Below are positions 43,035 through 55,897 of a DNA stretch of 64,000 bases, in pieces (positions within the stretch are counted from its first letter, which is position 1; each line of letters begins with the position of its first letter). The DNA is taken from positions 620,001 to 684,000 of the forward strand of contig NZ_WJIE01000002.1 in assembly GCF_009649845.1 (NCBI RefSeq), written 5' to 3'. The translations under genes were made by a program, and so were the position numbers. The notes beneath the pieces are model-generated. The model was given only the letters and a program-made list of their open reading frames with translations, had not been told where the DNA came from and did not search any database. The DNA comes from Polyangium spumosum (GTDB lineage Bacteria > Myxococcota_A > Polyangia > Polyangiales > Polyangiaceae).

Positions 43035-46000
43035 CTATCGGCAGGGGTTTTCCCTGACCGAGGCGGCCTGGCCGTCACAGGGGAGCTCGACCGTGAACAC
43101 CGATCCGGCGCCCACCTCGCTCTGGACACGGAGCGTGCCCCCGTGCGCCTCCGCGATCCGGCGGCTGATGTACAGGCCGAGCCCGAGCCCACCATAGTTC
43201 TCGGACGCGGCGCGCTCGAAGCGCTCGAAGATCTGGTCCCGCCGCGCCGGGTCGATGCCAATGCCGTGGTCCCGGATCACGACCCACGCGATCCCCCGCT
43301 CCTCGCCGAAGGAGACCTCGATGGGCTTGCCGGCGCCGAACTTGATCGCATTGGAGAGCAGGTTCGTCAGGATCTGATCCACGCGCTCGGGATCCCAGTG
43401 GCCAACGACGTGAGGGCCGCCCCGGATGTGGACCGGGCACCGCGCCTGCGCGAGCTCCGGCGCGAGCTGGTCGACCGCCTTGCGGACGAGCGCGGCGAGG
43501 TCGACGTCCTCGCGCTCGAGCAAGAGCAGGCCTGCATGGAGCTGCGAGACATCCACGAGGGCCTTGTTCAGCCGGGCCAGGCGCGTCGCTTGCCGCAGGC
43601 CCCGCTCGACCAGCCTGCCCATCACGTGCAGATCCCCCCCGCGCCCCGATTCGATGGCCCGGTTCATCGATTGCAACGTGAGCTTGAGGGACGTCACCGG
43701 CGTGTTCAGCTCGTGCGAGGCCACCGTGAGGAACTCGTCCCGCACGCGGATGGCCTGCTGGGTCTCGTGGTAGAGCCGCTCGTTGTCGATCGCGGCCGCC
43801 TCGGCCTCCGCGCGCGCCGCCTGCTCCTTTTCGAGGAGCAGCGCATTCTCCAGGGAGATGGCCGCCTGCGAGGCGAGTAACGAGAGGGCGACGAGCCGGG
43901 CAGGCGTGAAGGCGCCCGAGAGCACGTTGTTCTCCAGGTAGAGCAAGAAGGTCGCCTCGCCTTGCCGGAGAATGGGCAGGCCGAGGAGCGACCGCGGCTT
44001 CACGCGGGTGATGTACGGGTCCGCCGCGTATCTCGGGTCCTCGAACGCGTCGTCGAGGATCACGCGCTCCTTCGTCCGGAAAGCATACGTGACGATCGAG
44101 ACGGGCACGTCCGACGACGAGATCGGCCGCGCCGGGAGGATCCTCGTCGAGATACCTCTCGCCTCGAGGGACGCCTCCGCCGCGATCGAGGCCTCGCCGT
44201 CCTTGCAGCGGATCAGCGCGCCCCTTTGCGCCCCGCTCTGCTCGAGGACGACCGTGAGCAGCGTGCGCGAGAGCTTGTCGAAGGTGATCTCGCTCGAAAT
44301 GGTCTGCGAGGCCTTCGTCACCGAGAGCAGGTCGAGCTCCGCGGGCTGGACCACGACGGTGGCGGTGGGCCCGAGCAGCCTCGTGTCGAGGGAGGGGGGG
44401 AAAAGCGCGTCGAGCTGCCGCGCCTTTGCGTCGGCGCCCCAGCGAAGATATCGAGCGCGGGCCTCGCGCAGGTAGGTGTCGGCGAAGAGCTCGAAGCCAC
44501 GCGCGTGGTGAAACCGCGCCGCCATTTCGTAGGCGATCGCCTCGTCCTGGACGAACCCGTTCTCGCAGGCCGAACGGATCGCTTGCTCGTACATCTGCTC
44601 GGCCCGCGCCTCCTCGCCGGAGATACGCGCGATCTCGGCGGCGACCAGCGCCACGCGATGCGCGAAGTTCTCGGGGCAGCTCTCCGCCCACACCGCGAGC
44701 TGCCCGTGGTGGGCGACGAGCGCCGCGAGGTGCCCGGCTCGCTCGTCGGCAGGCACTTCGTCGTGGCGCGTGGCCCGCGCGAGCGCGGCATGAAAATGGT
44801 ATTCGGCGATCTCGAAGAAGGACGGCGACGTCCAGAGGAGCGGCTCGGCCTTCGACGCGGACGCGACGGCGGCCGCGGCGTCGCCCGCGAAGAAGCGCGC
44901 CTGGAGCTTGCGGATCCAGTACCAGCAGGCCGCGATCGCGAGGCGCGGATCCGCGGCGAGGTGCTGCTCGAATCGGCGCTCGTCGAATGGGTCGTCGTCG
45001 AGGGAAGAGACGTCGCCCGTCAGGCCGCGCAGGTGCCGGATGAGCTGCAGTTGCCCCGTGAGGATGTCCACGACGAGCCCGAACCTCGCCTTCCGCGCGA
45101 ATGCGAGCGACGCCTCGGCCTCCCGCTGCACGTCGTCGAGCGGGTCGCCCGCGGCGAGGACGAGCGTGATCGCGCAGTTGCGGGTATACGACGCGTACAG
45201 GAGATCGCCGGTCTCCTCGGCCGCGCTCTGGGCGCGCCGCAAGAGCGGGAGCCCCACGCGGAGGTGCCGGGTCCAGGGATTGACGAGGGCCCCGAAATCC
45301 AGATAGACGCGCGCCTTGAAGCGGAGCAGCGAGAGCTTCTCCTGCAGGTCGAAGCCGACCTTGCCGAACCGGAAGCCCGCCTGATACGCGCCGAAGCGCG
45401 GCCCGAGGATCATGCCGAGCCTCACGTAGGCGAGGCACGATCCGTCGCTGTTCCCGTGCTCCAGGCTGAGGTTCGCCATGCGACCGACGACGAGGCAATG
45501 CAAGTTCTCGTCGGTGAACATCGCCGGGGATTGCACCGCCGTGAGCACGTCCATCGTCGCGCGGCAGACGGGATCGGTCACCCTGGGCAGGTCCACGAGC
45601 GCCTCGATCGGCCGGCCTCCGAGCCGCTGCCACAGCCGCTCGTATTCTCGACGCACCTCGTCGTCCGTCGGCCGCGCGGGCCACGTGACGCCGACGAGCT
45701 CGAGGTATTCGCGGCACGCGTCGACGGCGAGGTCGCTCCTGTCCATGGTCGTGTAGAGCGCGATTCGCGTGCACGTCAGGGCGGCCCGGTCGAGGACGCC
45801 CCTCGCGTGGCGCCAGATCACCCCGAGCCGCGCCTCCGCAGCGGAGAGCTCGCCGGTCAAGAACTCGCATTCGGCGCGGTGGTGCTCGAGCGCGAAGGTG
45901 AGCTCGTACCGCCGGTCCCAGCCATCCCGGGCGAGGAGCGCCGAGCCGGCGGCGAGATACTTCAACGCCGACGCATGAGCGGTCGCCCCCTCGGCGCGCT

Positions 46001-48221
46001 TTCCCGCCAGCAGATCGAGCTCGGCCACCCGCTCTCGCTCCTCCTGCGACGTGATCAACGCGGCCCCGCGGTCGAGCTGGTTCACGATTTCGAAGATCTT
46101 CTCCTCGCGCCGCTCGGGCGGCGTGCGCGAGACGAGCAGCCTGCCGATGGCGAGGTGCAAAGCCGCCCGCTCGCCCTCGGGGACGAGCGAATACGCCGCC
46201 TCCTGGACGCGGTCGTGGAGGAATTTGTACATGCCGTCGAAGCGGAAGACGAGCCCCGCGCGGACGGCCTCCCAGAGCTCCGCGTGCGTCGCGGCCTCCG
46301 AGCCTCCTCGGACCATCGAGAAGACCGCGACCTCCGCGGTGCTCCCGAGGCAAGCGAGATACGTGAGCGCCTCCCGGGTGCCCTCGGGGAGCCGCGCGAG
46401 TTTCCCGACCATCAACCCGACCACGTTATCGGTGAAGTTCTTTTCGCGGATCTTCTGCACCTCCCAGCGAAAGGCCTCCGCGTGCTCGTCGAATTCGATG
46501 AGGCGCTCCTCGTGGAGCGCGGTGAGGAACTGGATCGCGAAGAAGGGATTGCCGGCCGTCTTCTCGTGGACCAGGTCGGCGAGCGGCGCGACCTGCTCGC
46601 GTGGGCAATGGAGCGCGTCGCCGAGCAGCGTGGCGAGGTCCTCCCGGGAGAGCGGGCCGAGCACGATGGAAGAGACACGCGTGCCCTCCTTTCGCACCTC
46701 GTCGATCGTCCGCACGAGCGGGTGGGAGGTGGTCACTTCATTGTCCCGGTGCGCGCCGATCAAGAGGAGATGGCGCACCTCGGGGTGCGTCACGAGATCA
46801 CGCAGGAGCCCGAGGCTCTCGGCGTCGGCCCACTGGAGATCGTCGAGGAACAACACGAGGGGGTGCGGCTCTCTGGCGAACACCCCGATGAAGTGGCGGA
46901 AGACGATGCGGAACCGGTTCTGCGCCTCGGTCGGCGGCAGCTCGGCGACCGGCGGCTGCCTCCCGACGACGAGCTCGACCTCCGGGATCACGTCCACGAC
47001 GAGCTGGCCATTGACCCCGAGGGCGCGCTCGAGCTCTCGCCGAAATGCGGCGATACGCTCCTCGCTGCCGGCCAGGATCTCGAGCACGAGCTCCCGGAAC
47101 GCCCGGACGAACGTGGCGTAGGGGATGTCGCGGTTGTACGGGTCGAATTTCCCCGAAATGAAGAAGCCACGCGCGCGCGCGACGGGCTTGTAGAGCTCGT
47201 GGACCAGCGACGATTTGCCGATGCCGGGGTGGCCCGAGACCTGCACGACCTCCGGAGATCCCGTGCCGGCCACGCGCTCGAAGGCGCCGAGCAGCGCGGC
47301 GATCTCCTCGGCGCGGCCGTAGAGCTTCTGGGGGATCTCGAGGCGGCCCGAGGCGTCGTGCTCGGCCAGGGGAAACGGGTCGATCCTCCCTTTGGCGCGC
47401 CATTCGGCGAGGGATCGCTCGAGGTCGTGCTGCAAGCCCCGCGCGGTCTGATAACGATCCTCCGCCATCTTGGCGAGGAGCTTCATGACGAGCGCGGAGA
47501 GGACCTCGGGCAGGGCCGGGACCCACGCTCCGGGCGGCTCCGGGACACGGGCGATCTGGCAATGCACCCATTCGAGCGCGTCCACGGCCTCGAAGGGCAG
47601 GCGCCCGGTGAGCATTTCATAAAACGTCACGCCGAGGGCATAGAGGTCGGCGCGGCTGTCGATCGCCCGGTTCATCCGGCCCGTCTGCTCCGGCGAGAGG
47701 TAGGGCAACGAGCCTTCGATGAGGCTCGGGCTCTCGGGGGCCTTGTGCTCACGGGGCAGACCAACCGCGAGCCCGAAATCGGAGAGCTTGACCTCGGCCG
47801 TGGCCGCGTTGACGAGGATATTCTGGGGCTTCAGGTCTTTGTGGATGACGTCACGCTGGTGGAGGTCCGCGAGGGCCGACGCGATACGGGACGCGAGGAC
47901 GAGGAAGCGCTCGATGGGCATGGGCGCGCCGAGGAGGCGATCGAGCGACTCGCCGCCGAAATCCTCCATCACGAGCGCCGGCATTCCCTCGTACGTCTCG
48001 AGGCCGAGCGGCTTGACGATGGTCGGGAGGTCGAGCTGCTTGCCGATCTCGTATTCGTGCTTCAAGCGCTCGAGATCACGCGGTCGGCTGCGCCTCCGAT
48101 CGAGCACCTTCAGGATCACGGGGACGCGATCGGCCGTCCGGACGCCGCGGAGGACGATGGTGCTTCGACCTTCGTGAACGACCTGGGAAATCGCGAACGG
48201 GGAGACGTCCTGCGTCGGCAT
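43035..48221 (-). CDS. Trifunctional Ser/Thr kinase / AAA ATPase / GAF sensor histidine kinase
   Basis: 1,728 residues. Residues 1-280 are a Hanks kinase (HKDLKPQN, DFGLAV, SPEQTGR). From about 295 comes a MalT/PknK-like ATPase with GHPGIGKSS (Walker A, near 330) and LVLFLDDLQWAD (Walker B). A long helical TPR-like region spans about 600-1260, a GAF domain about 1290-1440, a coiled-coil linker, HisKA with ASHELNTPVTS (His about 1503) and HATPase_c to the end (NLLSNAIKFG, GLGLGLYISRRIAEAHGG). The first glycine loop is degenerate (VVHEGRSTIVLRG). This fusion type is known from myxobacteria and cyanobacteria. No transmembrane segment. Confidence 0.95.
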   Translation of the reverse strand: MPTQDVSPFAISQVVHEGRSTIVLRGVRTADRVPVILKVLDRRRSRPRDLERLKHEYEIGKQLDLPTIVKPLGLETYEGMPALVMEDFGGESLDRLLGAPMPIERFLVLASRIASALADLHQRDVIHKDLKPQNILVNAATAEVKLSDFGLAVGLPREHKAPESPSLIEGSLPYLSPEQTGRMNRAIDSRADLYALGVTFYEMLTGRLPFEAVDALEWVHCQIARVPEPPGAWVPALPEVLSALVMKLLAKMAEDRYQTARGLQHDLERSLAEWRAKGRIDPFPLAEHDASGRLEIPQKLYGRAEEIAALLGAFERVAGTGSPEVVQVSGHPGIGKSSLVHELYKPVARARGFFISGKFDPYNRDIPYATFVRAFRELVLEILAGSEERIAAFRRELERALGVNGQLVVDVIPEVELVVGRQPPVAELPPTEAQNRFRIVFRHFIGVFAREPHPLVLFLDDLQWADAESLGLLRDLVTHPEVRHLLLIGAHRDNEVTTSHPLVRTIDEVRKEGTRVSSIVLGPLSREDLATLLGDALHCPREQVAPLADLVHEKTAGNPFFAIQFLTALHEERLIEFDEHAEAFRWEVQKIREKNFTDNVVGLMVGKLARLPEGTREALTYLACLGSTAEVAVFSMVRGGSEAATHAELWEAVRAGLVFRFDGMYKFLHDRVQEAAYSLVPEGERAALHLAIGRLLVSRTPPERREEKIFEIVNQLDRGAALITSQEERERVAELDLLAGKRAEGATAHASALKYLAAGSALLARDGWDRRYELTFALEHHRAECEFLTGELSAAEARLGVIWRHARGVLDRAALTCTRIALYTTMDRSDLAVDACREYLELVGVTWPARPTDDEVRREYERLWQRLGGRPIEALVDLPRVTDPVCRATMDVLTAVQSPAMFTDENLHCLVVGRMANLSLEHGNSDGSCLAYVRLGMILGPRFGAYQAGFRFGKVGFDLQEKLSLLRFKARVYLDFGALVNPWTRHLRVGLPLLRRAQSAAEETGDLLYASYTRNCAITLVLAAGDPLDDVQREAEASLAFARKARFGLVVDILTGQLQLIRHLRGLTGDVSSLDDDPFDERRFEQHLAADPRLAIAACWYWIRKLQARFFAGDAAAAVASASKAEPLLWTSPSFFEIAEYHFHAALARATRHDEVPADERAGHLAALVAHHGQLAVWAESCPENFAHRVALVAAEIARISGEEARAEQMYEQAIRSACENGFVQDEAIAYEMAARFHHARGFELFADTYLREARARYLRWGADAKARQLDALFPPSLDTRLLGPTATVVVQPAELDLLSVTKASQTISSEITFDKLSRTLLTVVLEQSGAQRGALIRCKDGEASIAAEASLEARGISTRILPARPISSSDVPVSIVTYAFRTKERVILDDAFEDPRYAADPYITRVKPRSLLGLPILRQGEATFLLYLENNVLSGAFTPARLVALSLLASQAAISLENALLLEKEQAARAEAEAAAIDNERLYHETQQAIRVRDEFLTVASHELNTPVTSLKLTLQSMNRAIESGRGGDLHVMGRLVERGLRQATRLARLNKALVDVSQLHAGLLLLEREDVDLAALVRKAVDQLAPELAQARCPVHIRGGPHVVGHWDPERVDQILTNLLSNAIKFGAGKPIEVSFGEERGIAWVVIRDHGIGIDPARRDQIFERFERAASENYGGLGLGLYISRRIAEAHGGTLRVQSEVGAGSVFTVELPCDGQAASVRENPCR

Positions 48222-49475: not shown

Positions 49476-50927
49476 CTAGAAGCGGGCCTTCGCGTGCCCG
49501 CCGAGGTATCCGATCGCCATCGTGTACCTCCCATTGCCCACGTCGCTGCGCGAGGTCGTCACCGTCCTCGGCAAGATGCCCTGCGCGCGGGCGTCGGCGT
49601 GCAGATCGAGCCAGCGCGTCGCCCGCACCACGGCCCCGAGGCCGCCGATCAGCCTGTGCCCGTCCGGCGAGCCCACGTCGATCGTCTCGTCGGGGGAGGC
49701 GGGCGATTGATACCCGACCGTCGCCGACATCGTGAAGCGCCGCGAGAGCGCGAGGCGCGCATTGGCCTCGACCCAGACCGTGTCGTTCCAGCGCCTCGGC
49801 AAGACCGCTCGCACGGACGGCCCGATCCCGAGCTTCGGCTGCGCGAGGGCCGGCGAGCGGGTCGTCACGACGAACGCGTCCACGTCCGAATAGGTGATGT
49901 ACTGGACGAACCCGTCCACGCGAAACGAATCGGTCGCCTGATACGCCGCGCCCGCGGTGAGCCGCCTGGGGAGCCGGAAGGCGAGCTCGGCGTCGCCCTC
50001 GACGAGCTCCGGATACCGGAGCCCCTGCGCGGCGAGGTCCTGCGTGAAGAACGGATCGTTCATGTCGAGCGCGAAGCGCCCCCGGTAACGCATCTTCGCG
50101 CCGTGCTGATACGCGAGCGCGAGGCGCACGCGCTCCGTGGGCTCGTACAGGAGGCCCGCGTTGAACGAGAAGCCGTGGCTCAGGGCGTTCGTGATCGAAA
50201 TCGGCCGCGAGAGCACGTCGAGCTCGCGCACGTGGCTCGGCGCGTCCGGGCCGAACTCGTTCGGCTGTCCGATCGGCGGGTCGGAGAACGCGCGCTGGAA
50301 CTCGGGCAGCTCCGCGAAGTCCTGCTTCTTGGAGAGGCTCGCGAGCCCGCCCACGTACGAGACGCCCGCGCCGAACGAGAGGTTTGGCAGGACGCGCACC
50401 GCCGCGCTCGCCGTCACGAAATTCGCCACGATGAAGGCCTGCCGGAGCTGCCAGGCCTGCGCGCCATTGTTCGGGAAATCGAGCGCCGCCGCGTAGGGCA
50501 CGTAGGCGCCGAGGCCGAGGACGAGGCGCCGACGCGCGATCGGCATCGCAAAAAACAGATCCCCCGTCGGCGCGAGCGGCGTCGCGACCACCTCCTCGGC
50601 CCAGCCGCGTTTCTCCGGGGCGATCTCTCCCTCCGCCATGGGCCCTCGCAGGCGCAGGGCGTCGGGCGTCTGGTATGTCCCCCGCCGCTCGCGTCGATAC
50701 CCGACCCTGCCCGCGACGACGCCCGCGCCGCCGAAGAGCTCGGGCCGATCGATATCGGCGAGCGCCGCGGGGTTCCAGTGAATGGCGGCGGCGTCGCCGA
50801 TCGTCGGCCCCGATTGCCCGCTCCCCACGAGCGGGGCGTCGAGCCCGGACGCATTCGCGCCGGCCGACGCGAGCAGCGAGCCGAGGGCGAGGGGAAGGGA
50901 CGCGATACGCAGCGGACGACGTGCCAT
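49476..50927 (-). CDS. FadL/OmpP1-family outer-membrane hydrophobic-compound transporter
   Basis: 483 residues with a signal peptide ending ANA-SG. FadL features: mature N-terminus with GDAAAIHWNPAAL (the NPA motif), VLGLGAYVPYAAAL, and a series of beta-strands ending in MAIGYLGGHAKARF with a C-terminal Phe. Such barrels pass fatty acids or other hydrophobic molecules across the outer membrane. It lies 22 bp after the second paralogous lipoprotein gene on the same strand, suggesting joint function. Confidence 0.87.
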   Translation of the reverse strand: MARRPLRIASLPLALGSLLASAGANASGLDAPLVGSGQSGPTIGDAAAIHWNPAALADIDRPELFGGAGVVAGRVGYRRERRGTYQTPDALRLRGPMAEGEIAPEKRGWAEEVVATPLAPTGDLFFAMPIARRRLVLGLGAYVPYAAALDFPNNGAQAWQLRQAFIVANFVTASAAVRVLPNLSFGAGVSYVGGLASLSKKQDFAELPEFQRAFSDPPIGQPNEFGPDAPSHVRELDVLSRPISITNALSHGFSFNAGLLYEPTERVRLALAYQHGAKMRYRGRFALDMNDPFFTQDLAAQGLRYPELVEGDAELAFRLPRRLTAGAAYQATDSFRVDGFVQYITYSDVDAFVVTTRSPALAQPKLGIGPSVRAVLPRRWNDTVWVEANARLALSRRFTMSATVGYQSPASPDETIDVGSPDGHRLIGGLGAVVRATRWLDLHADARAQGILPRTVTTSRSDVGNGRYTMAIGYLGGHAKARF

Positions 50928-50949
50928 GGTGCTCTCCCCTTCGATCGAA

Positions 50950-52716
50950 TCACGACGCGCGCGTCACGACGAGCGCGAGCCTGTACCGGCTCGGCTTCCC
51001 GGAGACGACGATCTCGAAGACGCGCCCCTCGGCGTCCTTCACGTAAAGCCGGTCTCCCGGCTCGACCCGGACCTTTTCGTGCGCCGTGTCCCCGTCGATC
51101 TCGACGCGCGAGGATATCTTCTGCCCGAGCGCGGGATCGGCGTAAAAACCGGGATCCGTGTAGGCATACGGCCGCACGGGCTGGCCCTCCGCGTCCTCGC
51201 GGATGTCCTCGGGCGCCACGAAATAGAGCCAATCCTCGGCGCGGCCCTCGGGCTTCACGTAAAAGAAATCGGCGTCGCCCCGGGTATTTCCGGTCAGCGC
51301 CTCGGCCATGGCGCGAAGCGCCGCGGGGTTCTGCTCGATGTTCTCGCGAATGCGCGCGACGACCACGTCCGCCGACACACCCACGGGCACGTCGCGCACG
51401 GGCATCACGACGTTCGCCTCGCCCTCCGCGAGCCCGCCGTCGTGCATACGCGCCTGCGCGACCTCGAGGAGCATGTCCCAGAAATACCCGGGCGCGGGCG
51501 GCGGACCCTCCAGGATCACGCTGGGGTCGATGTCGATCTGCACCCAGCCGTCCGCGTCGATGCACACGCGCACGGCCTCGAACGGATCGGAGACCTCCCC
51601 CGCGGGCGAATACGAGGTGCAATGGGGCGGGATCCGCGCCGCGAGGCGCCGCCCCGTCTCGGCGAGGACACGCTCCTCGGCCCACGGCGCCGCGCTCCAC
51701 ACGGGCGAATCGCCGAGCGGCCGCGGATCCCGCCTCGTCCCCGGCACGAGATACCGCGGGTCCTCCGCGATCGTCATCGTCATCTCCCGGATCGAGAGCT
51801 CCTCCGCGAGCCCCTCGACCTCGAGCCAGCGCGGATCCGTGAAATCGAAGGCGCGGTCCATCTGCCCGCCGATCGAATTCACGCTCGCGACGCGCGCGTG
51901 CGAGGCGTCGATGCCCCGGTACGGGAGCGCATTCACGTCGAGCCGCACCGTCATCCGGAAGCCCCCCTCGGACGTCGAGAGGCCGGACGCGGACCGGAGA
52001 AACCCCGGATGTGCAGGGCCGCGTGGATCGTCCGGCGCGAGGGACGCCGGGCCAAACCTCTCCGAGAGCGAGGCGAAATCCGTGGCCACGTCGTGGAGGC
52101 TGAGGGCGATCTTGCCCTCGTCCACGGGGTAGAGGCCCTCGGGGTGACCTTCGGTCGAAGGGCCGCGGCGGAATCGCGCGCGCGGATGTGTCCCGACGAC
52201 CTGCTCCAGGACGACATCGGTGACGATCGCGTGATCGGCGATCCGCTCGTTCGGCCCCGCGCCCGTGAGGTCCGCGAGGATCTGCGACGGCGAGATCCCG
52301 ACCGCCTCGCCCACGGCCGAAAGCCCCGCGAGCGCCGTGCCTTCGAGCCGCGCGTTCTCCGGCGTCATGTGGAGCAGGTAAAACATGTTCCAGGCCGGCT
52401 GCGGGAGCGCCTTCGCCTCCTCCGTGGGCAGGTTCATGAACCTCTCGAGCGCATTCTCCACGAGCGGCCGGAGCTCCATGTCGAGCAGCCAGGTCTCCTC
52501 GAGCGTTTTTCGCGGCAACCGGCGGAGCTCCTCCAGGCCGAGCGTCTGCGCGAAATCCTCCACGTCGAGCCGCAAGAACCGCAGCGTGACCTCGCGGCTC
52601 TCGCCCACGGCGAGCTCGCCCTCGGGCGGGGGCGGCTCGAGGCGGACGGGCTCGACGCAGCCCGCGGCCGAGGCGCCGAGAAGGGCGAGCAGCGCGGCGC
52701 ATCGTTTCGTGGTCAT
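50950..52716 (-). CDS. Large lipoprotein, paralogue 2 of a tandem pair
   Basis: 588 residues from ATG 52716, overlapping the upstream gene's stop (ATGA). Lipobox SAAGC (Cys20). It shares layout and phrases with its neighbour: VVGTHP, LHDVATDFASLSERFGP, YFWDMLLEVAQARMHD, DVPVGVSADVV and a C-terminal beta domain with VEPGDRLYVKDAEG. There are few cysteines outside two pairs. No known family recognised. Adjacent to a FadL-like porin, so a periplasmic or surface carrier for a hydrophobic ligand is possible but unproven. Confidence 0.75.
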   Translation of the reverse strand: MTTKRCAALLALLGASAAGCVEPVRLEPPPPEGELAVGESREVTLRFLRLDVEDFAQTLGLEELRRLPRKTLEETWLLDMELRPLVENALERFMNLPTEEAKALPQPAWNMFYLLHMTPENARLEGTALAGLSAVGEAVGISPSQILADLTGAGPNERIADHAIVTDVVLEQVVGTHPRARFRRGPSTEGHPEGLYPVDEGKIALSLHDVATDFASLSERFGPASLAPDDPRGPAHPGFLRSASGLSTSEGGFRMTVRLDVNALPYRGIDASHARVASVNSIGGQMDRAFDFTDPRWLEVEGLAEELSIREMTMTIAEDPRYLVPGTRRDPRPLGDSPVWSAAPWAEERVLAETGRRLAARIPPHCTSYSPAGEVSDPFEAVRVCIDADGWVQIDIDPSVILEGPPPAPGYFWDMLLEVAQARMHDGGLAEGEANVVMPVRDVPVGVSADVVVARIRENIEQNPAALRAMAEALTGNTRGDADFFYVKPEGRAEDWLYFVAPEDIREDAEGQPVRPYAYTDPGFYADPALGQKISSRVEIDGDTAHEKVRVEPGDRLYVKDAEGRVFEIVVSGKPSRYRLALVVTRAS

Positions 52717-54530
52717 CGCGGCCTCCGCGAGGCGACCTTGTCGAGATCGACGACCATGTCGCGTCCCTCCTCGTCGTCGGGCACCCAGATCCGGATCTCG
52801 TAAACGTCCTCGGCGTCGTCCTCCGCATAAAACACGTGCTCGCCCGGCGGCAGGGGCGCCTTCTCGTGCTCCGTGTCGGAGACGCCCGCGATGTCTCGCC
52901 TGGATACGCGGCTCTCCTCGGCGAGGTCCGGGCGCGCGAAGAACCCGGGGCGCTCGTATCGATACGGCTTCGGCGCCCCGGAGCCCGCAGGATCGGGCCT
53001 CCGATCGGACGGCGCCACGAAATACAGGAGCGGCGGGCCTCCCTCCGCGCCGCGCCGCACGTAGAAATCGAGGTCGTCGTTCTCCTCCCAGAACCGCCCG
53101 ACGATCACGTTCGCCATGAAATCCGCCTGCGATTGCAAGGTCGGCCGCATCTCCTCGACGAGCTCGGCGCCGCGCGGGCCGATCGGCACGCCCCGCAAGG
53201 CGAACACCGGCCGCGCGGCGCCCTCGGCGATGTCCTGCCTGCCGTCGCCCGTCGGGTCGTGCAGCGCGATCTGCGCGACCTCCCCGAGGAGGTCCCACAA
53301 GAATCGAGGCTCCGGCACGGACACGCCGCGGATCGCATTCTCGAACGTGATCCACCCCGGCGGCGCGCCGCGCTGCCCGATCTCCACGCCGACGAGGCAA
53401 TCGTCGTCGAGCCGGACGTAACAACGGTCGTACGACCGCTGCCCGTATGCGCGCGCGGAGCCGCTCGTCACGGTCGACTCCAGGAAAAACGGCCGGCACG
53501 CCGGATCGGCCTCGCACGAGGCCACGAAATGGGGCGCCTCCACGGTCGAGAAGCGCATGTCGACCGTGGGCACGTCGGCGACGCCCTCGATCACGAGCCG
53601 CGCCGGGTCCTCGAAATCGAACGAGAGCGGCGCGCTCCCCTCCATCACGAACATATCCCCTCCGCCCGTGGAGAGGTCGATCCCGCGCACGCGCCGCAGG
53701 TTCGACCGGGCGACCACGCGCATGCGAAAATCAGGGCCGAGCACGTCGCTCCGCGTGGAGAAATGACCGTCGTCCGGCACGAGCACGCCGGGGTGCCCCA
53801 CGCTCCCCGCCACGGGGCCGAATTTCTCGGGCAACGTGGAGAGGTCCTTCAATGCGTCGTACAGGGTGACGGGCAGCCTTCCCTCGGGGTTACCGATTCC
53901 CGGGTGCGTGCCGAGCAGGTTCTCCTGGAGCGCGCGCACCAGGGCCTCCGTCGGCACGATCGGGTCGGTGCGCCCGATGCCCAGGGTCTCGGCGAGCACC
54001 GCGGGGAAATCGAAGCGGAACGTGCCCGGGTTTTGCTCGAGCAGCTTGGCGAACGTCTCGAGGCTCGTCCCCGAGAGGTTCGTGTTCGCCGGCGTCATGC
54101 CGAGCAGCCGCACCAGGGCAAACTCGGCCGACGTGCGCCAGGCGGGCCCGAAGGTCCGGCCGAGCGGCGTCTGCGTGCAATCGTATCGCGGGTCCTTCCG
54201 ATCGAGCCGAAAGCCATGGCCGCAGGCGTCTCGAATGGAATCGAGCACGTTCCCGAGCAGGGCCGTGGAGTCCACGTCGAGGACCCGGATTTGCCTCGCC
54301 GCCTCCTCGCCGAACATCTCGAGCGCCTTCGCCTTGTCGAGGTCCAGCGTGACGTCCTCGGGCGCCTCCGAGCCGGGAAGGGCGAGGAAGAACCGATTCG
54401 CGAAAATGGGCGGGTAAGGGTCGACCTCGGCCGGCAGATCGACGCCCGCCGGCTCGGTCGTCGCGGAGCCGCCGCAGGCGGCGAGGGGCAGGCAGAGGAG
54501 CCAGAAACGGCGGCGTGTCGAGGTCCTCAT
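52713..54530 (-). CDS. Large lipoprotein, paralogue 1 of a tandem pair
   Basis: 605 residues from ATG 54530; GGAG nine bases upstream favours it over the ATG at 54539. Lipobox PLAAC (Cys19). It parallels the next gene: LLGTHP, LYDALKDLSTLPEKFGP, RFLWDLLGEVAQIALHD, RGVPIGPRGAELV and a C-terminal domain with PPGEHVFYAEDDAED. Several cysteine pairs (CEADPAC, CYVRLDDDC) suggest disulfides. Start of a four-gene minus-strand operon. Family not recognised. Confidence 0.75.
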   Translation of the reverse strand: MRTSTRRRFWLLCLPLAACGGSATTEPAGVDLPAEVDPYPPIFANRFFLALPGSEAPEDVTLDLDKAKALEMFGEEAARQIRVLDVDSTALLGNVLDSIRDACGHGFRLDRKDPRYDCTQTPLGRTFGPAWRTSAEFALVRLLGMTPANTNLSGTSLETFAKLLEQNPGTFRFDFPAVLAETLGIGRTDPIVPTEALVRALQENLLGTHPGIGNPEGRLPVTLYDALKDLSTLPEKFGPVAGSVGHPGVLVPDDGHFSTRSDVLGPDFRMRVVARSNLRRVRGIDLSTGGGDMFVMEGSAPLSFDFEDPARLVIEGVADVPTVDMRFSTVEAPHFVASCEADPACRPFFLESTVTSGSARAYGQRSYDRCYVRLDDDCLVGVEIGQRGAPPGWITFENAIRGVSVPEPRFLWDLLGEVAQIALHDPTGDGRQDIAEGAARPVFALRGVPIGPRGAELVEEMRPTLQSQADFMANVIVGRFWEENDDLDFYVRRGAEGGPPLLYFVAPSDRRPDPAGSGAPKPYRYERPGFFARPDLAEESRVSRRDIAGVSDTEHEKAPLPPGEHVFYAEDDAEDVYEIRIWVPDDEEGRDMVVDLDKVASRRPR

Positions 54531-54772: not shown

Positions 54773-55897
54773 ATGCGCCGCTTTTTCGCCGCTTCTTTCG
54801 CCGCCCTCGCCGCGCTCGTGACCCTCTCGACCGCCCCGGACGCCGAGGCCCAGACGTACCGCAACGGTCCGCCCCCGCAGCACCGGATCGTCTATAGCGA
54901 TTTGACCCTGTTCCGCTGGAACCCGCTCGGCCTCATCACGGACGCGCGGTTCGTCTATCGTTACCGGCTGTACAAGAGCGAGAGCCCGGCGCTCCGGGAC
55001 AACTTCATCGGGATCGGCGTCGCGCCCTCGCTGAGCGGCGCGTTCGCGCGCGGCGGCCCCACGATCCAGATCCAGCCGGCGAGCTTCCTGCAGCTCTGGG
55101 CGCTCTACGAGGGCATCGGGTATTTCGGCGCCTTCAACTTCTTGCAATCGTACGCCACGGCGGACGCGACGAAGGTCAACTACAGCGACACCGAGATCGA
55201 GCGGCGCGGCGACCTCGCGGACGGCAATCCGGAGAAGAACTATTCGACGACGGGCACGCAGCTCATCGTCGGCTCGAACCTCCAGTTCAAGGTCGGCCCG
55301 ATCGCCGCGCGCAACCTCTTCCGCTTCGGCCGCCCCGACATGAAGCTCCGCCAGGGCGACCGCGTCTTCTACGATATCTTCTACGATCTGCTCGTGGGCG
55401 ACGGCGGCTTCTGGTACTCGAGCGACACCGACCTCCTCTTCCAGGGCCTCGACAACCGCCTGACCGTGGGCTTCCGCTGGACGACGGGCCGAGCGTTTTA
55501 CAATGACGAACATTTCGCGCCCGGCGACGACAAGGACCGCGCGCCCGGCGCAATCCACCGCGTGGGCCCCATCGCGGCCTGGACGTTCACGAAGCCGGAC
55601 GGCGCGGCATTCGAGCCGACGGTGCTGCTCGTCGCGAACTGGTGGCTGAAATCCCCTTATCGCACGGGGCAGGACGTCTCGCAGGCCGTGCCGTACATCA
55701 TCGTCGCGCTGAACATCACGGGCGACCTCCTGCCTGCGCCGAAGGAGGAGAAGGCGAAGCCCACGCCGAGCGAGCCGCCGGCCGCGCCCGAGCCCACGCC
55801 CGAGCCCACGCCCGCGCCCACGCCCGAGCCCGCACAGGAGCCGGCCGAGCCCGCGCCCGCTGCGCCCGCCGAGCCCGCTCCCGCCGGGCCGCAATAA
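54773..55897 (+). CDS. Outer-membrane protein with Pro/Ala/Glu-rich tail
   Basis: 374 residues with a signal peptide (cleavage near AEA-QT). The first about 320 residues resemble a beta-barrel (YSDLTLFRWNPLGLITDARF, YRYRLYKSESPALRDN, FKVGPIAARNLFRFG), and the last about 50 are repeated Pro-Glu-Pro-Thr/Ala units that may cross peptidoglycan or the surface. Length and layout recall uncharacterised myxobacterial outer-membrane proteins. A sigma70-like promoter precedes it. Confidence 0.7.
   Translation: MRRFFAASFAALAALVTLSTAPDAEAQTYRNGPPPQHRIVYSDLTLFRWNPLGLITDARFVYRYRLYKSESPALRDNFIGIGVAPSLSGAFARGGPTIQIQPASFLQLWALYEGIGYFGAFNFLQSYATADATKVNYSDTEIERRGDLADGNPEKNYSTTGTQLIVGSNLQFKVGPIAARNLFRFGRPDMKLRQGDRVFYDIFYDLLVGDGGFWYSSDTDLLFQGLDNRLTVGFRWTTGRAFYNDEHFAPGDDKDRAPGAIHRVGPIAAWTFTKPDGAAFEPTVLLVANWWLKSPYRTGQDVSQAVPYIIVALNITGDLLPAPKEEKAKPTPSEPPAAPEPTPEPTPAPTPEPAQEPAEPAPAAPAEPAPAGPQ

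Follow-up and report, generated by a model that had tools for sequence, protein, structure and literature searches.

Two paralogous lipoproteins and a FadL-family channel as a coupled gene unit in Polyangium spumosum and other Myxococcota

Accounts of FadL channels usually present them as acting without partners. The FadL/OMPP1/TodX barrel family, with its N-terminal NPA motif, includes E. coli FadL and the structure 3dwo, which we take to be that of P. aeruginosa FadL. In Vibrio cholerae, volA and fadL presumably lie next to each other. VolA is described in excerpts of PMC9496633 as a lipoprotein exposed on the cell surface that releases fatty acids, which are then taken up. A FadL-family barrel is likewise combined with a large surface lipoprotein in BamG–BamH of the Bacteroidota BAM complex, where an N-terminal extension of BamG, 10–12 residues long, threads the lateral opening of the barrel (excerpts of PMC12611786 and PMC12578637). 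Systems of the SusCD type, as far as the excerpts describe them, also pair a surface lipoprotein with a channel, and in E. coli K-12 the gene of the outer-membrane lipoprotein MlaA is located two genes from fadL. Here, we analyze a locus in which two lipoprotein genes adjoin a FadL-family gene; the accessible parts of the open-licence literature yielded no paper on a system of this make-up.

The three-gene locus and its distribution

In the window, i.e. the 64,000 nt-long stretch of Polyangium spumosum DNA that was analyzed, three consecutive minus-strand genes (49476-54530) encode, in this order, the alpha-clade lipoprotein LP1 (52713..54530; 605 aa; lipobox LAAC, Cys19), the gamma-clade lipoprotein LP2 (50950..52716; 588 aa; lipobox, Cys20) and a FadL-family outer-membrane channel (49476..50927; 483 aa) with an N-terminal NPA motif and a C-terminal Phe. 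A signal peptide and a lipobox could be read from the N-termini of both LP1 and LP2. An earlier note on this DNA had described two lipoproteins of ~600 residues sharing a series of phrases, overlapping by ATGA and followed at 22 bp by a FadL-type barrel. This description proved correct in each respect: the quoted phrases are present, the stop/start overlap of LP1 and LP2 occupies positions 52713..52716 (minus strand), FadL starts 22 bp past the end of LP2, and the barrel belongs to PF03349 (OMPP1/FadL/TodX; 116.4 bits, cut-off 29.7). Five further genomes of the genus (L034-L038) were examined, and all have the same 4-base overlap. LP1 and LP2 are paralogues, with a similarity far above chance (BLASTP; 29% identity, 143/494 columns, E 5e-37), and LP2 is the sole other match of LP1 in the 10.76-Mb genome at E 0.001 (E 3.5e-28).

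Relatives of LP1 occurred in 15 of 108 genomes of the family, as two or three tandem genes, and each of the 15 has them followed, in the same order, by a FadL of this subfamily, which scores at least 417 bits; other FadL matches at E 0.001 were confined to three of these genomes and reached 23–27 bits. The lipoprotein profile matched 17 of the 183 genomes from the order and 35 of the 377 from the phylum. With four candidates scored per genome and weaker FadL relatives unlisted, a profile built for the partner FadL found, at E 1e-40, 33 of the same 377 genomes, every one of them among the 35 that are lipoprotein-positive. The sample thus divides into 33 genomes with both, two with the lipoproteins only (G292 and G388, whose lipoprotein genes are located at the end of a contig) and none with FadL only (Fisher p 2e-45 for a set of related, not independent genomes); counted by genus, both are found in 22 of 234. 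Deeper scoring of another class, most or all of whose genomes fall within the 377 and are not independent of them, returned the same 9 of 57 genomes with either profile. The distances of FadL correlated with those of the first and the last lipoprotein gene (r 0.84 and 0.87; 27 loci), values uncorrected for the species tree. LP2 had no match in plasmid records at E 0.001, and a single genome-contig scan, sensitive to close relatives only, returned three Polyangium records.

Across the 47 lipoprotein-positive genomes (15 from the family, two more from the order and 30 more from the phylum sample), FadL and a lipoprotein gene shared a contig in 43, with FadL as the last gene in 28 and as the first in 15. 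Gaps between lipoprotein and FadL genes were mostly below 200 bp, with many overlaps, as judged from starts estimated by script. FadL was 670 bp off in G407 and 2.2 kb off in G484, with another gene in between. A 4.4-kb contig of G111, the only one examined from this genome, carries the lipoprotein without FadL, and in G261, G292 and G388 the genes lie at contig ends, with the FadL of G261 on another contig.

The alignments and the lipoprotein tree comprised 84 lipoprotein rows and 34 FadL rows, the window's own included. Near copies (L035, L036, L037, L046, L047) were dropped, as were lipoprotein rows covering at most 450 and FadL rows covering at most 440 model positions; the L043 and L044 rows and the lipoprotein row L104 were further left out from 87 lipoprotein and 35 FadL references. 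A quick maximum-likelihood tree of the 84 lipoprotein cores, with its root placed by midpoint only, separated clade alpha (38 rows, SH-aLRT 100) from a second side (SH-aLRT 100) made up of two clades, gamma (37 rows, 100) and the middle one, beta (9 rows, 92). Position in the unit follows this division: first-position genes on the tree are alpha, except for L123, whose contig is cut, and those in last position, next to FadL, are gamma. Units of three genes with all rows on the tree read alpha-beta-gamma, but L108 and L115 read alpha-gamma-gamma, and the five solo rows, including L103 on a short contig, are all alpha. As alpha and gamma each hold rows of several classes, the duplication predates those classes.

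Co-distribution in the 377 genomes, adjacency and the joint retention of alpha and gamma make a coupled lipoprotein-lipoprotein-FadL unit well supported. The coupling proposed in the earlier note therefore stands for the lipoprotein pair and the channel, leaving out the Gly-linker lipoprotein that it had added. The same note had looked to relatives lacking the porin, or keeping one lipoprotein only, as evidence against coupling. Such cases are mostly missing; in G379, alpha is on a different contig from gamma-FadL, and G365, G476 and G484 carry an extra solo alpha gene without an adjoining FadL. The solo alpha genes of G365 (L137:4891-10650) and G484 (L139:7917-13630) constitute a FadL-free context for the lipoprotein family. 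Both adjoin a DUF1501 gene and a gene whose large product matches DUF1588 (PSCyt3), and the G484 locus has DUF1549 and DUF1553 matches as well. Directly downstream of the solo alpha gene of G476 (L138:6789-9509), at 4 bp by open frames, lies an alpha/beta-hydrolase gene.

The lipoprotein family and its FadL barrel

Neither LP1 nor LP2 exceeded any Pfam cut-off or matched an NCBIfam model, and the 84 lipoprotein cores returned no NCBIfam model and no consistent Pfam family (Pfam at E 0.1). LP1 alone had no match in the PDB at E 1. The family profile retrieved six polyubiquitin-type sequences from the PDB, of which no stretch passed alone and which we took as a repeat artefact. In LP1, LP2 and their relatives, profile and PDB comparisons brought up no fold already known and no family with a lipid-binding or catalytic role, and comparison of core halves by hhalign at three cuts yielded no internal duplication (all below 1% probability). 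Judged by these comparisons, LP1 and LP2 are probably members of a new lipoprotein family.

A lipobox was found by pattern in 100 of the 109 lipoprotein ORFs with the start covered, four of which have Asp at +2. Invariant in all 84 rows are H209, G238, H246-P247-G248 and W412 (LP1 numbering), while D225, E331, E351, D488, D509 and H424 are conserved at 0.93–0.99 overall and at no less than 0.87 in each clade. C103, C118 and C345 are conserved in 97–100% of the alpha rows and not in gamma. No clade looks degenerate in these alignments, which fits a putative active or binding site shared by the family. In 18 rows, more than 100 residues separate the pattern-called lipobox from the core. All ten of these long N-termini that were scanned matched families of Ig type (e.g. 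Big_7 and Glucodextran_B), some of them near the cut-offs; the genes concerned are alpha and beta, and no such stalk was present in the LP1 and LP2 of the window or in the gamma copies examined. AlphaFold models of LP2 (mean pLDDT 33, 8-row alignment) and FadL (26, 4-row alignment) were both unusable, the alignments being shallow and drawn from the window and L003-L005 only.

Regarding the barrel, all 34 members of the FadL subfamily matched PF03349 at E 0.001, and the subfamily profile aligned to E. coli FadL and 3dwo, including the NPA motif, with the N-terminal hatch sequence carrying this motif being present in the window protein. Pentatricopeptide matches of FadL were taken as a repeat artefact. 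The window FadL scored 39.3 bits against the E. coli FadL equivalog model NF007988, far under its cut-off of 585, and the subfamily differs from E. coli FadL further in having lipoprotein partners of its own. Its mature N-terminus is likely also shorter: in 39 of 42 loci the likely cleavage site, called by AxA pattern only and with longer alternatives existing, lies 25 residues before NPA, compared to 32 residues in E. coli FadL, counted from what we take to be the cleavage site of the latter. With the hatch motif kept and the mature N-terminus probably shorter, BamG-style plugging of the lateral opening appears unlikely. Three other, weaker PF03349 matches in the window genome (86.9, 32.7 and 26.0 bits) could serve general fatty-acid uptake.

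The locus thus differs from each of the described systems named above. Compared to BamG-BamH, cleavage sites called by AxA pattern give no sign of the BamG extension, the barrel scores far below the BamG model and the lipoproteins have no recognisable relationship to a solved chain. VolA is a lysophospholipase (excerpts of PMC9496633), whereas the Pfam matches of the 84 lipoprotein cores at E 0.1 include no hydrolase family. Compared to SusCD, the barrel is a FadL, and no SusD family was among the Pfam matches of the 84 cores. MlaA has 251 aa, is encoded on the opposite strand and shows no similarity to LP2 (E 1.0).

Possible roles of the unit

That the trio is co-inherited in many lineages of the phylum suggests an unrecognised machine moving greasy molecules at the cell surface. 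As raised in the earlier note, a hydrophobic ligand might be taken up, exported or displayed, and each of these would fit the FadL family. The reading we favour, tentatively and with slightly less than even confidence, is an outer-membrane unit for the uptake of a hydrophobic ligand, in which the ligand is captured or processed by surface lipoproteins and then delivered to a FadL of their own; we prefer transport, with the lipoproteins in the part of capturing or processing partners, because plugging of the lateral opening appears unlikely. Two lipoproteins from a single old family, or three in several lineages, would sit on the outer membrane with a probable outward orientation, in some relatives on top of stalks of bacterial Ig domains. 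They would bind or process fatty acids, lysolipids or similar ligands and hand them over to the FadL-type barrel, from which, as in other FadL channels, the ligand would leave sideways into the membrane. We infer the surface facing, a physical complex of the three proteins, the identity of the ligand and the inward direction. Points against this reading are that the lipoproteins matched no recognised lipid-binding or catalytic family, that Ig stalks are absent from those of the window and from the gamma copies examined, that some FadL relatives act as scaffolds, and that the genome has the three other PF03349 matches.

A more far-reaching version, which we regard as doubtful, would make the unit an undescribed class of outer-membrane lipid importer, with an obligate FadL loaded by two or three heteromeric surface lipoproteins, which would have a new fold and would extract or cleave lipids, for example from prey or dead cells. 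If true, such an importer would be the lipid counterpart of SusCD, spread through many Myxococcota lineages. No genome was found to have this FadL subfamily but not these lipoproteins (33/33), so some FadL channels may be receptor-assisted, and the three genes provide a direct handle on lipid acquisition in these bacteria.

The main rival, which we consider improbable, is a scaffold, i.e. a non-transporting FadL that anchors the surface lipoproteins as in BamG/BamH, in a unit that helps to assemble or display surface proteins. FadL relatives of scaffold type do exist in BamG and PorV, and BamG binds its large surface lipoprotein via its extracellular side (excerpts of PMC12611786 and PMC12578637). 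While 13 of the 34 FadL members weakly matched the BamG model NF053685 (best E 1.6e-5), the window FadL reached 14 bits against a cut-off of 250, and AxA-pattern cleavage sites gave no sign of the BamG extension. The lipoprotein profile, moreover, returned no BAM lipoprotein from the PDB, a set in which the presence of BamH is unconfirmed, and a unit as patchy as this one (35/377 genomes) is unlike an essential assembly part.

We also assign a low probability to the lipoproteins acting as periplasmic receivers that hang from the inner leaflet, take the ligand as it leaves FadL and ferry it inward. Inward facing is the common orientation of lipoproteins in Pseudomonadota, according to partial sources, and the tight gene coupling to FadL would suit this arrangement, against which the Ig-domain stalks of some relatives weakly argue, as they fit an outside position better. 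Export or surface coating with a self-made lipid or lipopeptide is very unlikely: diffusion through FadL-type channels follows gradients, and FilD, a relative of FadL, is part of a putative pilus system, its model (NF050080) being weakly matched by 25 of the 34 members, but the window FadL scores 26.9 bits against a cut-off of 970 and neighbour clustering revealed no widely conserved biosynthetic or pump genes, an ABC-ATPase-like cluster being present in 4 of 42 loci only.

For the favoured uptake by surface lipoproteins and FadL, Myxococcus xanthus offers a lead. A mutant in its fadL (MXAN7040) does not incorporate alkyne-palmitate (excerpt of PMC4048283). MXAN7039, with the adjacent locus number, has been called a putative lipoprotein. 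In PMC3222651, with 34 peptides (FadL, 13), it ranks second in the table of outer-membrane beta-barrels and is absent from the lipoprotein table. During predation, the FadL-like MXAN_7040 and MXAN_6116 go down, in a study that proposes an unknown uptake process (PMC9548883), lipid acquisition in these bacteria being an open point in print. MXAN7039 and MXAN7040 might be counterparts of the lipoprotein and FadL genes, a weak lead kept outside our estimate for the uptake reading. In the 377-genome sample, MglA, used as a probe for Myxococcus, gave a best identity of 84% among the 58 genomes over threshold.

Genes around the unit

Clustering of neighbours revealed, beyond the lipoproteins and FadL, no gene cluster in more than 11 of 42 loci. 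Next in frequency were a kinase-containing cluster (11 loci), opposite-strand ORFs (six loci; overlapping the lipoprotein genes in the examples seen) and the ABC-ATPase-like cluster (four loci). The GC3 gene caller recovered the lipoproteins in 38 and FadL in 28 of the 42 loci; as it is crude, rarer neighbours may be missed. The genes flanking the unit in the window are common to the loci of the genus only. Among them, a 374-aa protein without a Pfam match at E 0.001 is encoded divergently from LP1 (54773-55897, plus strand), in a place kept in other genomes of the genus. This gene and an IMPDH-like gene were rejected as unit parts since they adjoin it in the genus only, as was the downstream kinase, given 39–41% identity between window and relatives. 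On the minus strand at 43035-48221, a 1728-aa hybrid combines Ser/Thr kinase, AAA_16, GAF, HisKA and HATPase domains in one chain.

As the earlier note had it, a gene for a Gly-linker lipoprotein does exist after FadL; it lies at 49402-48305, 73 bp on. Among the 15 trio genomes compared, its product is full length in the window genome only, with other matches being weak and limited to the N-terminal third, and this lack of conservation led us to reject it as part of the unit. A scan of the 73-bp gap found no terminator, so the gene may be co-transcribed with FadL. Where the window has the orphan Gly-linker protein after FadL, each of the five further genus genomes examined has a hydrolase gene (L034:11844-12794 and the corresponding position in L035-L038). 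This hydrolase is absent from the window genome at E 1e-20; the copy scanned by Pfam, that of L034 (G085), matches BD-FAE esterases.
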